64,000 nt of DNA, taken from contig NZ_AXWW01000010.1 of assembly GCF_000482865.1 (NCBI RefSeq), positions 62,001-126,000 on the forward strand, given 5' to 3'. This document shows, in pieces, positions 3,737 to 38,485 of this stretch; the first letter of the stretch is position 1, and each line of letters begins with the position of its first letter. A program made the translations under genes and the position numbers. Source of the DNA: Actinokineospora inagensis DSM 44258. Its GTDB lineage: Bacteria > Actinomycetota > Actinomycetes > Mycobacteriales > Pseudonocardiaceae. A model generated the notes under the pieces. It was not told the DNA's origin. It worked only from the letters and a program-made list of their open reading frames with translations, and searched no databases.

Positions 3737-3935
3737 ATGCCCAGCCCTCCTGGTCGATTCGTGCCTTTCGGAGCGTACGACGACTTTTGTGCCACCTCGG
3801 CTTCCGCGGTGGTGGTTGAACCTCTTTTCGTTGCCCCACCAGGTAAGTGTCGGTCTGTGTCCTGTCCGGACTTCACCCGTCCAGGCGACAAAACTTATCC
3901 ACAGGCTGGCTCTGTCGGCCCGTTGCCAAGATCCA

Positions 3936-3958
3936 CTGTCGGTGAGGGCCAGTAGACT
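3936..3958 (+). promoter_or_regulatory. RecA-NDp/PafBC-type promoter motif
   Basis: CTGTCGGTG, eight bases, then TAGACT. This matches the mycobacterial DNA-damage promoter pattern tTGTCRGtg-N8-TAnnnT. A TTATCCACA box lies 32 bases upstream. The motif faces the CRISPR array, whose first repeat begins 200 bases downstream. No intact gene starts in between. Confidence 0.55.
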
Positions 3959-4059
3959 GGCCTCGGGGACGCCCCCCGGGAAGGGTGGGGGCCGGGCTGC
4001 GCCCGGTGGGGCGGCGGTAAGAGGTGGTGGTTGGGGGGTGTGGCTGGGGTAGGGCTGGT

Positions 4060-7240: not shown

Positions 7241-9205
7241 TCACCCGACGTGCACCCCGGGCCTGCGCCGGGGGTCCGGTTCGGCGGTGCGCAGGATCTC
7301 CCGGGTGACCGGGGCCGTGTCGCCCTGGCCGAGCAGCAGGTACCGGAACAGGTGGGTGATGGGGTTGCCCTCGGACCACTCGAAGTAGCAGCGCGGCCGC
7401 ACCCCGGTGGCGTCGCGCAGCGCCAGCAGGATCGCGGCGATCGCGTTCGGCGCGGCGGGGCTGTCCGCGCGCAGCACCCGGTGGCCGTTGACGTCGACTC
7501 CGCGCACCCGCAGCACGTCGCTGAAGTCGGACGGGTCGATCACGTCGATCTCCAGGAACAGCACGTCGGCCGAGCCGGGCACCGGGTTGAGGCCGCGCTG
7601 CTCGGCCTCCTTCGCGGCGTACTCGGCCGCGTCGCCCGCCTGCCGCTTGTTGGCGATGATGCTCAACCGGCCGTCGTGCTCGATGGAGTCGGTGACGAAC
7701 CGGCGGGCCTCCTCGTCGAACTCGATCCGCTCGGCGCGCAGCTCGGTGGTCCGGGTGACCCGGGAGATCAGCGACACGACGATGATCGCGGCGACGAAGA
7801 TGGCCGAGATGGCGATCCCGTCCGGCTTCTCGATCACGTTGGCCACCAGCGCGTAGAGCAGCACCAGGGTCAGCACCGAGAACCCGACCCCGGAGGCGGC
7901 GTGCTTGCGGCGGATCGCGGAGACGGTGACGGCGAACGCGCCGGACACCATCATCGCCAGGATGCCGGTGGCGTAGGCCCCGGCCTGGGCGTCGACGTTC
8001 GCGTCGAACGCGATGGTGATGCCGATGTTGGTGGCGGTGTAGACCAGCACGACCGGGCGGACCGCGCGGCCCCACTCCGGCGCCATCCCGTAGGACGGCA
8101 GGTAGCGCGGCACGATGTTGATCAGGCCCGCCATCGCCGACGCGCCCGCGAACCACAGGATGAGCACGCTGCTGACGTCGTAGGCGGTGCCGAACACCTC
8201 ACCCAACCGGCTGTGCGCGAGGTACGCCAGCGCGCGGCCGACCGCCTGGCCGCCCGGCTGGAACTCCTTCGCCGGGATCAGCACGGTGGTGATCAGGCTG
8301 GTGGACACGAGGTACACCGACATGATCACGGCAGCGGTGGTGAGCAGCTTGCGGGTGTTGTGGATCCGGTTCGCCAGCCGCTGCTCGCCCTTCCCCTTCG
8401 CGGCGATCAGCGGCATCATGCTGACCCCGGTCTCGAACCCGGACAGGCCGAGCACCAGCAGCGGGAAGGCCAGGACGGCGGTACCGGCGAGGTTGCCGCC
8501 CGAGGTCAACGCGGTCCACCAGTCCGACAACTGCGCGCCGTGGCCGAACAACTCCCCCAACCCGACCACGACGATGACCGCGTTGAGCGCGAGGAACACC
8601 GCGACCAGCGGGATCGCCACCGACACGGCCTCGCTGAAGCCGAGCAGGAACACCCCGCCCAGCACCAGCAACAGGACCACGGTCACCCACACCTCGCGGC
8701 CGTGCAGGAACGACGGGAAGAACGGGTTCTCCACCATGTGCACCGTCGCGTCCGCCGCCGACAACGTGATGGTGATGATCCACGAGGTGGCGACGAACCC
8801 GAGCAGCACCAGCACGAACACCTTGCCCCGCCAGAACGGCAGCAGCTTCTCCAGCATCGCCACCGAACCCTGCCCGTTCGGGCTCTCCTTGGCGACGCGC
8901 CGGTACATCGGCAACATGCCGAACAACGTCAACGCCACGATCAGCAACGTCGCGATCGGCGAGATGGCCCCCGCCGCCACCACGGCGATGGCGGGCAGGT
9001 ACGAGAGCGTGGAGAAGTAGTCGACCCCGGTGAGGCACATGACCTTCCACCAGGCCTGCGGCTCCCCGTGCTCCTCCTCACTGGCCCGCCCCACCGGCTG
9101 CACCCGGTGCTCCATCAGCCACCTGGTCACCGCCCGCCGCGGCGGACCCCCCTCCGTCGGCGAGTCCACCTCCGCCGGGAGCAGGTACTCCGGTTCGGTG
9201 CTCAT
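7241..9205 (-). CDS. APC-superfamily amino acid permease
   Basis: The 654-residue integral membrane protein has about 12 hydrophobic segments between residues 60 and 510, then a hydrophilic C-terminal domain of roughly 130 residues. The first segment carries [19 protein letters not shown], typical of large actinobacterial APC permeases, and the middle has [17 protein letters not shown]. It probably moves an amino acid or related solute with protons; the substrate is not visible. The in-frame frame extends to 9286, but ATG at 9203-9205, after GGGACGAG, gives the normal N-terminus. It is separated from the chemoreceptor by 102 bp and seems unrelated to motility. Confidence 0.85.
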
Positions 9206-9346
9206 CTCGTCCCTGCCGGGGGTGGCGTGCTGCACGGGGTGAAGCATGCCGCATCCGAGTCCATCCCGTGGACCACGCCACTCCACCCACCCGTGTCCGT
9301 GATCACCACCCGCGACGTCGATGCCGACTGAGCAGCCCCCGAATCC

Positions 9347-9369
9347 AGCCTAGTGGGGGGCACCGACAG
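9347..9369 (-). promoter_or_regulatory. RecA-NDp/PafBC-type promoter core (copy A)
   Basis: Read on the minus strand: CTGTCGGTG, eight bases, TAGGCT. A TTGTCCACA box lies upstream at about 9393-9401. It points toward the permease gene start, 142 bases away. Confidence 0.5.
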
Positions 9370-9634
9370 AAACCGGCTCCCGCGTGGCGGCCTGTGGACA
9401 ACCTCGACGGCCGGCCGTTCGACACCACCGGCGCGGCCACGTTCGAGGCACAGCGTCAAGATCAAGCCGGTGCGAGCAGCCCCCGAATCCAGCCTAATGG
9501 GGCGACCCGGGCCGAGACCGGAGTGAGCGGGAGGCTGTGGACGAACAGCCGCGATGGGGATGGTCGAGGTTCGAGCCGACCTGGGGGTCCACACACAGCC
9601 GAGCTGTCCACACCCTCAGCGCAGGACCGGGCTC

Positions 9635-9657
9635 CCGTCGGTGCCGCCCACTAGGCT
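9635..9657 (+). promoter_or_regulatory. RecA-NDp/PafBC-type promoter core (copy C)
   Basis: CCGTCGGTG, eight bases, TAGGCT, with a CTGTCCACA box at 9604-9612. No gene starts downstream on this strand. Confidence 0.5.
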
Positions 9658-9773
9658 CGATTCGGGGGCTGCTCGCACCGGTTCGATCTTGAACCCGGCG
9701 ACGTGGGCCGCTGACAACCCGGCACCGCGGCATCCATCGAGTTGTCCACAGGTCACCACGCGGGACCGCGTTC

Positions 9774-9796
9774 CTGTCGGTGCCCCTGGCTAGGCT
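9774..9796 (+). promoter_or_regulatory. RecA-NDp/PafBC-type promoter core (copy D)
   Basis: CTGTCGGTG, eight bases, TAGGCT, with a TTGTCCACA box at about 9742-9750. The only change from the mycobacterial consensus is the first base. No gene starts downstream on this strand. Confidence 0.5.
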
Positions 9797-10070
9797 CGAT
9801 TCGGGGCTGCTGAGGCCGATTCGATCTTGAACCAGACGGAGTGGGCCGGTGGCAGCCGGGCACCGCGGCATCCATCGAGCTGCCCACAGGCCGCCACGCG
9901 GGACCCGATTTCTGTCGGCATCCCCGGCATAGGCCCGAACCGGGGGCTGCTCAGGCCGACTCGACGCGCCCGCGCCCCACAGGGGTCCGGTGAGGGGCGC
10001 GTGCGGCAGCCCCTCAGCGACTGTCCACAGGCCGCCGGGCTGTCCACAGCCCCAGCGCAGGACCGGATTC

Positions 10071-10093
10071 CCGTCGGTGCTGCCCACTAGGCT
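10071..10093 (+). promoter_or_regulatory. RecA-NDp/PafBC-type promoter core (copy F)
   Basis: CCGTCGGTG, eight bases, TAGGCT, preceded by two TGTCCACA boxes (10022-10029 and 10041-10048). Transcription from it would run antisense into csrA. Confidence 0.5.
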
Positions 10094-10141
10094 GGAATCG
10101 GGGGCTGTTCAGCGCAGTCGATCTTCGTGCGGGGAGCTGAC

Positions 10142-10429
10142 CTACTCGGCTGGGGGCTTGGGTGGGCGCGGTGGGGGGACCGGGCCTGGGTGGCCCGGTC
10201 CCCGGTTGCGCAGGGCGTCCGACAGGAGGGCCGCGGCTTGTTCGCCCGTGCGGGCGGCGGCCTCGTTGGCGCGGCGGAGTTCGCGGTAGACCTCGTCGCG
10301 GTGGACCGCGACGGAGCGGGGGGCCTGGATGCCGACGCGGACCACGTCGCCGCGGATGTCGAGGACGGTGACGGTGACCTCGTCTCCGATGCGGACGCTC
10401 TCGCCGGTTCGACGGGTCAGCACCAGCAC
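10142..10429 (-). CDS. csrA: Carbon storage regulator CsrA, flagellin translation regulator
   Basis: CsrA is a small homodimeric RNA-binding protein that blocks ribosome access at GGA motifs. The first 60 residues hold the whole CsrA fold, starting [16 protein letters not shown] and including [20 protein letters not shown]. The 95-residue chain is longer than most CsrA proteins because of a Pro-rich tail from about residue 65. It is the last gene of the flgN-flgK-flgL-fliW-csrA operon, 27 bases after fliW. As in Bacillus, FliW should hold CsrA inactive until flagellin binds FliW, so the likely target is the flagellin leader at 14822-14878. Confidence 0.95.
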
Positions 10430-10456: not shown

Positions 10457-10909
10457 TCAGGCGGGCAGCAGTCGGGCGCGGATGGGGAGATCTTCCTCCA
10501 GGATGACCTGCGCCGCTCGTCGGGTGCTCTGGTCGACGATGACCGGGGCGAGCAGGTTGGCGGTGGCCTCGGCGACCGAACCGGCGGCGGTGACCACGAG
10601 CAGGACCAGCAGGTCGGCCGGGTCGGTGGTGCCGAGCTGCTCGAGGACCTGGGTGCTGACCTCGGGCGCGTAGTCGGGGAAGAACGGCGCGGGTGGGACC
10701 ACCAGGAACCGCAGTTCCGGCTCCTCCACCGAGCGCAGGGTGAACAGCGGCCCGTCCTCGTCCACGGCGACCAGCGCGAACTCGCGGTGGTCGGGGAACC
10801 CCGGGATGGGGGTGCGGAACTCGATGGTGGGCAGGCCGTGCTCGGCGCCTGCGGTGGACTCGGTGCTCACGGCGGACGCCGCACCTCCTCGGGCCAGGGT
10901 GGCGGTCAT
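10457..10909 (-). CDS. fliW: Flagellar assembly factor FliW
   Basis: FliW binds free flagellin and, when flagellin is exported, binds and inhibits CsrA, coupling flagellin synthesis to export. This 150-residue protein has a variable 25-residue N-terminus, then the family core: IEFRTPIPGFPDHREFALV, PLFTLRSVEEPELRFLVVPP, FFPDYAPEVS and an ADLLVLLVVT strand, ending with the helix-strand region TANLLAPVIVDQSTRRAAQVI. Its ATG overlaps the flgL stop by three bases (minus strand ATGA), so the two are translationally coupled. csrA follows 27 bases on. Confidence 0.94.
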   Translation of the reverse strand: MTATLARGGAASAVSTESTAGAEHGLPTIEFRTPIPGFPDHREFALVAVDEDGPLFTLRSVEEPELRFLVVPPAPFFPDYAPEVSTQVLEQLGTTDPADLLVLLVVTAAGSVAEATANLLAPVIVDQSTRRAAQVILEEDLPIRARLLPA

Positions 10910-36160: not shown

Positions 36161-37257
36161 GCGGGAAGTCCGACGCAACCGAGAAGCCGACACCGAAGCG
36201 GCTCAAGCAGGCCAGGTCCGAGGGCCAGATCGCGCGCACCGCCGAACTGGGCACCTGGGCCGCCGTCCTCGCCTCGACCTGGGTCATCCCCGGCGTGCTC
36301 ACCACCCTGTTCGACGACAGCGCGTCCTGGCTGCACCAGATCGCGGGTTTCATCGCCAACCCCGACCCCGCCGCCGCGTTCACCATCCTCGGCACCACGT
36401 TCAAAGAGGGCGCGATCGCCGTCGCCCCCCTGCTCGGCGCGACCCTGCTGGCCGTCCTGGCCAGCGCGGGCGCCCAAGGCGGCCTGCGCCCCGCGATGAA
36501 GCTGCTCAAGCCCAAGTTCACCCGCCTCAACCCGCTGAGCGGCCTGAAGCGGATGTTCGGCCCGCACGCCATCTGGGAACTGGTCAAGACCCTGCTCAAA
36601 ACCGGCATCCTGGCCGTGGTCCTGTACACGGCGGTCAAGAACCTGATCCCCACCATCATGGGCTCGGGCTCCCTGCCCCTGTCCTCACTGGTCAACACCC
36701 TGGGCGACACGGTGCTGTCCCTGATCCGGATGGCCGCCATCGCGGGCCTCGTGATGGCAGCAGCCGACTACATCGTGGCCAGGCGACGCACCAACAAAGA
36801 GCTGCGGATGACGAAGCAGCAGGTGAAGGACGAACACAAGAGCACAGAGGGCAACCCCGAGATCAAGGGCCAAATCCGCGCCCGCCAACTCGCGATGAGC
36901 CGCAACCGCATGATGTCCGACATCGCCACCGCCGACGTCGTCATGGCCAACCCCACCCACGTCGCCGTCGCCCTCCGCTACGACCCCGACAAGGGCGCCC
37001 CCCGCGTCATCGCCAAGGGCGCAGGCGAAATCGCCGCCAAAATCCGCGAACTGGCCACCGAACACCGCGTCCCCATCGTCCGAGACATCCCCCTGGCCCG
37101 CGCACTGTACAGCGCTTGCGAGGTCGGCCAGGAGATTCCGGTCGACTTGTTCGGTCCAGTGGCACATGTTCTCGCGTTCCTGCACCGCCTGCGGAGCAGG
37201 GGATCGGCGGCGGGCATCCACAACATGCCGGCGGGGGCGGCGGCAGCAGCGGCCTAA
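36157..37257 (+). CDS. flhB: Flagellar biosynthetic protein FlhB (export specificity switch)
   Basis: FlhB controls the switch from hook to filament export and cleaves itself at an NPTH motif. In 366 residues, four membrane helices lie before residue 215; the cytoplasmic domain follows, with ADVVMANPTHVAVALRYDPD near 263-282, so the self-cleavage site is intact. The N-terminus (EKPTPKRLKQARSEGQIART) is the conserved amphipathic part. It is the last gene of the main operon; flhA is separated from it by about 5.5 kb of inserted and lost sequence, and is on the other strand. Confidence 0.97.
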   Translation: MSGKSDATEKPTPKRLKQARSEGQIARTAELGTWAAVLASTWVIPGVLTTLFDDSASWLHQIAGFIANPDPAAAFTILGTTFKEGAIAVAPLLGATLLAVLASAGAQGGLRPAMKLLKPKFTRLNPLSGLKRMFGPHAIWELVKTLLKTGILAVVLYTAVKNLIPTIMGSGSLPLSSLVNTLGDTVLSLIRMAAIAGLVMAAADYIVARRRTNKELRMTKQQVKDEHKSTEGNPEIKGQIRARQLAMSRNRMMSDIATADVVMANPTHVAVALRYDPDKGAPRVIAKGAGEIAAKIRELATEHRVPIVRDIPLARALYSACEVGQEIPVDLFGPVAHVLAFLHRLRSRGSAAGIHNMPAGAAAAAA

Positions 37258-37406: not shown

Positions 37407-37556
37407 GCCCGTTGTGGTGAAGTTGCTTTGTTTGGGGGGACAGTAGCCTTAAGCTCCCTGGCGGGTAAGGCCACGTCTTTTCAGTGGCCCCGCCTTTTAG
37501 CCTTACCCAAGGCTGCTGTCAGGGGCCCCAAACAAAGCAACTTCACCACAACGGGC
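37407..37556. repeat. 150-bp cruciform with perfect 31-bp inverted repeat (MITE-like)
   Basis: The arms 37407-37437 and 37526-37556 are perfect complements (left arm starts GCCCGTTGTGGTGAAGTTGC). Inside, ACAGTAGCCTT pairs with AAGGCTGCTGT (one wobble) and GGGTAAGG pairs with CCTTACCC, so almost the full element can fold. The composition (many A and T) differs from its GC-rich surroundings. It could be a miniature inverted-repeat transposable element, a bidirectional terminator of the flagellar operon, or a structured RNA; no T-run follows either arm. Confidence 0.8.
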
Positions 37557-37665: not shown

Positions 37666-37688
37666 CTGTCGGTGGGCTCGTCTAGGCT
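37666..37688 (+). promoter_or_regulatory. RecA-NDp/PafBC-type promoter motif
   Basis: CTGTCGGTG, eight bases, TAGGCT. The -10 hexamer ends two bases before the left inverted repeat of the IS element, so the IS has cut this promoter from whatever it served. Confidence 0.5.
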
Positions 37689-37690
37689 GT

Positions 37691-38485
37691 GAGGGTTATT
37701 CAGAGCGGGCGTAGAAGTAGAGGCTGATGACTGTTGTGATGGTGGTGGGGAAGGTGTGGGGTGGGCGTCTGTAGTCGGTGTGGAGTATGCGCCAGGTTGT
37801 GAGGTGGGCGATGGTGCGTTCGACGGCGACGCGGGTCTTGTTGTGGTGGAAGTTGAAGTCTTTCTGCCATTGTGGTTGTTCGCGTTTGCGGAATGGGGTG
37901 ATCATGTCGCTGCCGATGTAGCCTTTGTCGGCGAGCCGGGTCGTGGTGTCCCGATCTTCCAGGATGCCTGACTGTCTGATGCGGTGCGTGTCGTGGTGGC
38001 GGCCGTCGATCGGGTCGGAGACCCAGGCGAGTCTGCCGTCGAGGGTGGATGCGACCTGGACGTTGACCCCGGTCCTGCGGTGTCGTGTGGAGTAGAGGCC
38101 GGGTCGTGACGCCCATGACCAGCACGGCGGCAGGGTTCCGTCCACGATGTGCCGGGCCTGCTCGTCCAGGTCGTCGGCGGTGGATATGTGGTCGTGGAGG
38201 ATCTTGCCGAGCACGGGCGTCAGCGCGGTGATCGCGCGGCTGATCGTCGGCTGCGACACCCCGAACGTCTCCGCCAACCCCGTTCGCTGGCGTCTCGGTG
38301 AATCGCGGCGCACAGGTTCTCGATGGAACCCCGCGTCAAGCCGGTGCTATGACACATGTCAGGCGATCCGTTTGGTGAGAACTCTGGTGTGGTAACCGAA
38401 TTATCTCAAACGGGCCGCCACCTACATCACGCACCCCCACCCTTGATGATCATCGGGCAAGGTTGAATCCGCCTGAATAACCCTC
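37691..38485 (-). mobile_element. IS5-like insertion sequence, degenerate
   Basis: Ends are a perfect 13-bp inverted repeat (GAGGGTTATTCAG at 37691-37703; complement at 38473-38485). A 3-bp direct repeat TGT flanks it (37688-37690 and 38486-38488), fitting target-site duplication. The only coding content is one DDE transposase with a broken N-terminus. At 795 bp it is shorter than typical intact elements of this group, which fits an internal deletion. Confidence 0.85.
37696..38357 (-). pseudogene. IS5-family DDE transposase, frameshifted
   Basis: The conserved part (from about 38270 down to 37696) has a helix-turn-helix LAETFGVSQPTISRAITAL and a DDE_4-type catalytic domain with D in HIVDGTLPPCW, D in WVSDPIDGRHHD and E in VAVERTIAHLTTW. 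Before it, the start is found in another frame: ATG at 38355-38357 gives MCHSTGLTRGSIENLCAAIH, then a deletion and shift occur near 38290. The protein cannot be made whole from this copy unless translation restarts inside. This is one event on an element that otherwise keeps its ends. Confidence 0.8.

Follow-up and report, generated by a model that had tools for sequence, protein, structure and literature searches.

Six copies of a dispersed repeat in the intergenic block beside csrA

The intergenic block beside csrA of Actinokineospora inagensis DSM 44258 contains six copies of an interspersed repeat, hereafter called the B unit. With moderate confidence, we interpret this cluster as a partly decayed local array, built from a dispersed intergenic repeat that is specific to the lineage and in part putatively promoter-competent; in the best reading, the units are solo, REP- or Correia-like dispersed modules of a superfamily. 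While the repeat identity of the units is observed directly, the cluster's own function may be nil. In the open-licence literature we found neither this repeat family, which is apparently undescribed, nor any interspersed repeat with a DNA-damage promoter or joined to pairs of DnaA boxes.

In the window, that is, the whole stretch of 64,000 nucleotides analysed here, the block (9236-10141, 906 bp) lies between csrA (10142-10429, minus strand), whose 3' end adjoins the cluster and which is preceded upstream by fliW (10457-10909), and a predicted minus-strand gene (7241-9235), the start of which is turned towards units A and B. The latter gave zero NCBIfam or Pfam matches and is a membrane permease by eye only. 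As the initial annotation had described, six diverged units in mixed orientation, each with a DnaA-like box, are found here, spanning positions 9328-10112, with A and B on the minus strand and C to F on the plus strand.

Specifically, unit A (9401-9328, minus) consists of the box TTGTCCACA (9401-9393), an exact core, TGTCGGTG-N8-TAGGCT (9368-9347), and the leader TAGGCTGGATTCGGGGGCTGCTCAG (9352-9328), and is directed toward the start of gene 7241-9235 at a distance of 117 bp. Unit B (9545-9456, minus) carries the box TTCGTCCACA and an intact TAGGCT leader followed by GATCTTGA, without a GTCGGTG box. Unit C (9587-9693, plus) shows TCCACA boxes at 9588 and 9607, an exact core, CGTCGGTG-N8-TAGGCT (9636-9657), the leader and GATCTTGA, and unit D (9742-9833, plus) shows TTGTCCACA (9742-9750), an exact core (9775-9796), a leader one G short and again GATCTTGA. 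In unit E (9880-9954, plus) both the box, CTGCCCACA, and the core, TGTCGGCA-N9-TAGGCC, are decayed, and GGGGGCTGCTCAG is retained. Finally, unit F (10021-10112, plus) has two CTGTCCACA boxes (10021 and 10040), an exact core (10072-10093) and the leader, and points antisense into the csrA 3' end, 54 bp from the stop codon, in agreement with the initial description of a cluster that borders csrA. The exact YGTCGGTG-N8-TAGGCT core is thus found in four of the six units (A, C, D and F); the two copies already recognised as decayed are B and E, which fail the PafBC consensus. Compared with TTGTCCACA, the boxes are exact in A and D, and carry one change in B, C and F and two in E.

This concentration is far above expectation. 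Allowing up to two mismatches, the core pattern is matched seven times in the window against 0.78 expected (maximum of 4 in 100 shuffles), and the 906-bp block holds seven TCCACA, where the window's own rate predicts 0.47. A leader scan recovers five of the six units, D being missed because its leader is one G short. Pairwise identity among the units ranges from 61 to 83%, and the block's direct repeats reach 80-89% over 36-126 nt (three of four families) and its inverted repeats 75-89% (the eight longest, pairs of 22-66 nt). C and F (83%) on one side and A, D and E (76-78%) on the other appear to form sub-groups within the cluster, a pattern suggestive of duplication in place combined with inversion.

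The absence of a convincing open frame, also proposed at the outset, is borne out by a codon-usage gene caller, which finds zero genes in 9236-10141; a small protein was rejected, since the ORFs of the block are dropped by this caller and are without coding signal. No known RNA family was matched in the window at Rfam gathering scores. An origin from a plasmid or a phage was likewise rejected: the cluster has zero matches in plasmids, and one palindrome region of a related genome described below (G015) has none in plasmids or phages.

The B unit is a dispersed repeat of several Actinokineospora species

The search for similar units in the genome of the window (G000, 7.28 Mb), a check put forward with the initial annotation, returned 99 exact YGTCGGTG-N8-TAGGCT cores, against 0 for the reversed-pattern control, so that the proposition of no such units elsewhere fails. 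Within the genus, these 99 cores and the at least 83 of G015 stand against 0-17 in 14 other genomes, among the matches listed, and the two high counts provide a natural comparison for array growth. The G000 cores are of two main kinds, type A, organised in tandem arrays, and type B, dispersed and corresponding to the units of the window.

The B unit comprises one or, frequently, two TTGTCCACA-like boxes (the two spaced by about 19 bp), approximately 20-25 nt, an optional YGTCGGTG, 8 nt, the leader TAGGCTGGATTCGGGGGCTGCTCAG and CGGTTcGATCTTG. Its 22-mer, with up to one mismatch, has 52 matches in G000 and is found in five of the 61 genomes examined, all five among the 16 of the genus Actinokineospora. 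By this same 22-mer, with which presence outside the five genomes was judged, exact matches occur also in Lentzea sp. NBRC 105346 and Kutzneria sp. 744; one weak match (83% over 46 bases) lies in G004. In the loci fetched from the five genomes of the genus we collected 151 distinct B units, at up to five mismatches to a 23-mer, an acceptance at which a few may be false. For G000, the loci comprise 78 of 85 clusters, in 76 stretches, plus nine stretches found through the 22-mer; seven clusters (C40:44022, C42, C45, C56:12, C79, C88 and C91) were left out. Cores also lie within about 500 bp of the starts of G000 contigs C13, C23, C31, C40, C45, C52, C56 and C88, which indicates that assembly breaks are prone to occur at the repeats and that the copy numbers are likely underestimates.

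Across the family, the more constant parts are the leader and the boxes, and the GTCGGTG box is optional. Conservation of the leader equals that of the -10-like element, going beyond the need of a bare promoter, and this counts against reading the unit as a promoter alone. Ahead of the units, the sequence varies widely and is often located at gene 3' ends. A shared fold is absent on either strand in the 25 B units sampled (mononucleotide shuffles, z from -4.7 to +1.8), with a single outlier below z -2 (-4.7). This absence, and that of a conserved body downstream (see below), bear on the initial suggestion that the units may be templates for short RNAs.

A positioned but optional PafBC-type promoter core

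The initial annotation had likened the core to the promoters controlled by PafBC. In the available text of PMC5656591, the consensus of these promoters is given as tTGTCRgtg-8nt-TannnT, and the window pattern fits it. The genome also encodes the regulator: two adjacent WYL proteins (C2:49403 and C2:50377) match the solved PafB and PafC chains with E values of 6e-88 and 2e-88, respectively. In addition, a strict PafBC scan of G000, excluding TAG, yielded 14 sites, 11 of which are located 12-117 bp before a called gene start; one of the other three lies inside a called gene and two in A and B repeats (L200, L205). Among the genes behind these sites are pcrA, a proteasome ATPase gene, metH and a PD-(D/E)XK nuclease gene, and in G014, G003 and G002 an mfd-type gene is preceded at 51-85 bp by an exact TGTCGGTG-N8-TAGGCT. 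The NCBIfam matches of pcrA, metH and mfd concern proteins cut by the locus end and fall below the models' curated cut-offs; one mfd-type call (L226) was made through NCBIfam and the other two through N-terminal sequence likeness only. In G003 (L232:1501-1534), the mfd-type promoter reads TGTCGGTG-N8-TAGGCTGGATTC, identical to the core and leader start of the B unit. This identity may hint at an origin of the B unit from the promoter of a repair gene, or it may be a coincidence.

DUF222/HNH endonuclease genes are said to have a PafBC-type promoter, which counted in favour of reading the units as remains of the fronts of such genes, as first proposed. This explanation is exceedingly improbable and is refuted for G000 at Pfam sensitivity, since PF02720 has 0 matches there, while one control genome, Corynebacterium glutamicum, does match; the diverse sequence ahead of the units, often at gene 3' ends, argues against it as well.

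Among the 68 B units of G000, GTCGGTG (up to one mismatch) was present at the exact PafBC spacing in 35, and in at most two at any of 33 other offsets. The corresponding numbers in the other genomes are 4/38 in G006, 1/27 in G015, 0/11 in G005 and 0/7 in G011, where most B units keep the box and the leader without GTCGGTG. Therefore, the PafBC box is real and positioned, yet optional in the B family, and promoter function is not the family's invariant. For the same reason, on the units compared, a decoy for PafBC, another role initially suggested, cannot be the general role of the family, most B units in the four sister species being without the box. By their sequences, about half of the B units of G000 look like competent damage-type promoters, and we infer the same competence for units A, C, D and F of the window.

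DnaA-like boxes within the B unit

According to the available part of PMC4285127, the 9-mer TTGTCCACA is the actinobacterial high-affinity DnaA box. The dnaA-dnaN gap of G000 contains four TCCACA sites, one of them within an exact TTGTCCACA. In the 68 B units of this genome, TCCACA occurs 61 times in sense and 9 times in antisense orientation, against an expectation of 1.2, the majority lying at offsets -64 and -45, and the bias is alike in the four other genomes (19/2, 41/9, 9/0 and 32/2). The identity of the 9-mer and its one exact occurrence in the dnaA-dnaN gap make DnaA binding at the boxes plausible.

We therefore weighed whether the repeats serve to titrate DnaA, as paired dispersed boxes forming a multi-site analogue of datA, the DnaA-box cluster used here as comparison system. 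The resemblance of the boxes to the high-affinity site, the content of the dnaA-dnaN gap and the similar offsets of the boxes in all five genomes speak for this possibility, but the leader and the PafBC box would be left unexplained and the consensus of type A is without DnaA-like boxes, so that we regard titration as quite improbable.

Sister arrays with the same core and a covarying palindrome

Type A consists of tandem units of about 78 bp, TGTCGGTG-N8-TAGGCTGTGTATTCGGGGGCT-N7-CGGTTGATC(T/A)TG. In 62 of 96 units, each with another exact core in its locus and hence free of ascertainment, TGTCGGTG is conserved at 1.82 bits per position, compared to 0.86 for the 8-nt spacer and 0.60 for the linker. 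Among the matches listed, the units of G015 (at least 83 exact cores), G011 (17) and G006 (11) join the boxes to the core. Many G015 cores belong to tandem units of about 118-133 bp, and the fetched ones carry paired DnaA-like boxes; in 52 ascertainment-free G015 units, GTCGGTG (up to one mismatch) is at the PafBC offset in 33, and in 10 at one control offset (-32).

In five species, these same-core sister arrays are usually followed downstream by a palindrome that covaries. In G000, 38 of the 45 type A arrays with room for it have such a palindrome, of about 140 nt, on their own strand within 500 nt ahead, and the distance between array and palindrome is 157-170 nt in 35 of 39 cases, one of the 39 being from G015. 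For the fetched arrays of other genomes, counting up to 700 nt from the final exact core, the palindrome is present in 33/39 cases in G015, 7/11 in G006, 3/3 in G011 and 1/2 in G009, at distances of 110-465 nt. The same search ahead of B units, within 500 nt, gave 0 of 125, and no conserved downstream body.

In an alignment of 29 representatives of 88 palindromes, from which N-containing ones were left out and whose inner part is uncertain for G000, 18 of the 43 predicted pairs are changed on both sides. The non-Watson-Crick pairs, read on the unit's strand in 41 distinct arm pairs, are A-C in 51 cases and G-T in 5. Since A-C on this strand corresponds to G-U on the opposite one, the exceptions suggest that the RNA folding the palindrome is that of the faced gene, strand-biased mutation being the alternative explanation. 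The idea of a damage-induced structured RNA read from the unit in the sister arrays is weakened, the pairing exceptions favouring the opposite strand. Searches for known RNA families in six loci, five of which contain the palindrome, returned zero matches at E 0.1.

The window itself contains a copy of the type A long palindrome (37410-37553, minus), in the gap following the gene that ends at 37257, with zero Rfam matches at gathering scores. At 37667-37709, an exact PafBC-type core has its usual leader replaced by GTGAGGGTTATTCAG and adjoins a fragment of an IS5-type transposase gene (37696-38259, minus). An IS end probably interrupts the unit here, as L023 shows an identical junction; IS-type sequences stand beside two A-type sites (L069 and window position 37696). 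A third kind of element, at 3895-4010 (plus), combines a TTATCCACA box, TGTCGGTG-N8-TAGACT and a GGACGCCCCCCGGGAAGGGTGGGGGC hairpin, and similar elements are present in L231 (G005) and in L234 and L241 (G011).

Placement at convergent gene ends and turnover of positions

Using a codon-based gene caller, we classified the gaps occupied by A or B units as 49 convergent, 4 divergent and 46 tandem. Empty gaps of at least 100 bp, drawn as background from the same loci rather than from the whole genome, were 15 convergent, 78 divergent and 106 tandem; accordingly, convergent gaps are enriched (Fisher P = 6e-16) and divergent gaps depleted (P = 3e-12). The 32 multi-unit B clusters have outward-facing units at 51 of their 64 ends (P = 2e-6). 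A gene lies at most 800 bp in front of 79 outermost B units, a count that leaves aside seven B units located in called genes. The unit faces a stop in 57 of these cases and a start in 22, and 48 of the 57 stop-facing units lie at 21-106 bp. Single units in tandem gaps face stops and starts alike, with no stop bias. Concerning the core, it is present in 9 of 13 start-facing and 21 of 36 stop-facing outermost units of G000, hence not clearly commoner at starts; in G006, GTCGGTG is commoner in units facing a start (3/6 vs 2/32, P 0.02, one among several tests).

This placement could indicate a function on the opposite strand, the unit serving the faced gene as a 3'-end element in RNA or termination, with the PafBC likeness being secondary. 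Such a role is suggested by the preference of the outermost units for nearby stops and by the A-C excess of the palindromes, which emerged although these were picked by a rule accepting G-T and rejecting A-C. However, facing a stop is automatic in convergent gaps and the single units of tandem gaps are unbiased, so that the count of 57 to 22 leaves a 3'-end function unproven; moreover, the A-C excess spans 8 columns against 4 for G-T and reflects few independent events, the B units share no fold on either strand, and the exact 8-nt spacing of GTCGGTG would find no explanation. We thus consider a 3'-end element unlikely. The idea that every gene is provided with a terminator unit of its own is weakened by the gaps between tandem genes.

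At the two gene ends compared, those of csrA and of the gene at locus L132, unit positions are mostly not shared between species. The csrA block is not conserved at the orthologous loci of six relatives, and only G015 has a B unit there, together with one core and one palindrome; in G006 (L187:1852-2468), three tandem palindromes with 239-240-bp spacing follow shortly 3' of csrA, where G000 has its B cluster. Likewise, among the matches listed, the orthologue of the L132 gene is accompanied by a B unit in 0 of 15 relatives, and in G002 the two L132-flanking genes are convergent across a 134-bp gap without a unit. Against pure turnover, G006 and G015 share, in the same place and with differing unit numbers, a pair of arrays around a gene that by eye encodes a GMC-type oxidoreductase.

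Lineage-specific positions, together with the outward orientation of the cluster ends, are also what one would expect if the units were the terminal repeats of a Correia- or MITE-like mobile element, an outward pair enclosing the element and promoter and boxes serving its spread. Promoter-carrying bacterial interspersed repeats are indeed known, the Correia elements being the example in the available text of PMC10969869. On the other side, the distance between paired units is variable (about 100 to about 650 bp), long alternating arrays occur (L170), and visual inspection of 22 proteins encoded next to B units revealed zero transposases, which together make this origin distinctly unlikely. Mobilisation by a RAYT was rejected: the Y1 transposase family PF01797 is absent from all five unit-bearing genomes and present in 2 of 16 in the genus.

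Proposed mode of action

For the preferred reading, a partly decayed array of a dispersed and partly promoter-competent repeat, we propose that the B unit would spread and persist like REP/BIME or Correia-type repeats. Intact units of G000 would act as PafBC promoters, giving rise to short outward transcripts after DNA damage; most of these would be antisense to neighbouring 3' ends, as predicted for unit F and csrA, and some would enter the start of a gene, as predicted for unit A and gene 7241-9235. The boxes could additionally bind DnaA. If active, the repeats would make transcription at numerous gene ends depend on damage and perhaps on the state of replication.

A broader picture is conceivable, although we hold it doubtful. 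Several Actinokineospora species would carry about 10-100 dispersed damage-responsive modules, with a PafBC box and often DnaA-like boxes, frequently aimed at convergent 3' ends, through which damage or a replication block would elicit genome-wide convergent and antisense transcription; full-length members would add the covarying hairpin, folded by transcripts of the faced gene, and the csrA cluster would be one such site.

Comparison with known systems

With promoters of the PafBC-controlled, RecA-independent P1 type, the window units share the consensus, exact in four of six with T or C as first base, and the presence of the regulator genes in the genome. They differ from them in being repeated about 100 times in the genome and often aimed at gene 3' ends rather than starts, and the B family differs in the optional nature of the upstream box, in the extra conserved leader and in the DnaA-like boxes. 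As in DnaA-box clusters such as datA, several DnaA-box-like 9-mers are gathered inside one intergenic block, but those of the window belong to a dispersed repeat with other conserved parts.

REP/BIME elements, for which the available text of PMC3733652 covers GTAG- and CGTC-tagged REPs, resemble the B units in forming extragenic clusters of mixed orientation in convergent and co-directional gaps, often near stops. In contrast to their palindrome of 20-40 nt, the B unit measures about 75-115 nt and has no shared fold in the 25 copies sampled, carrying instead a promoter-like core and DnaA-like boxes. The RAYT (Y1) transposase that goes with REPs of the GTAG class is absent from the five host genomes. 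Correia elements and bacterial MITEs, as presented in the accessible portion of PMC10969869, are similarly dispersed and bear promoter-like sequence in their repeat ends, whereas the B elements are without fixed length and their putative promoter is of the damage type rather than the sigma-70 type. In conclusion, the B repeat corresponds in full to neither definition, being REP/BIME-like in its placement and Correia-like in its promoter-like sequence.
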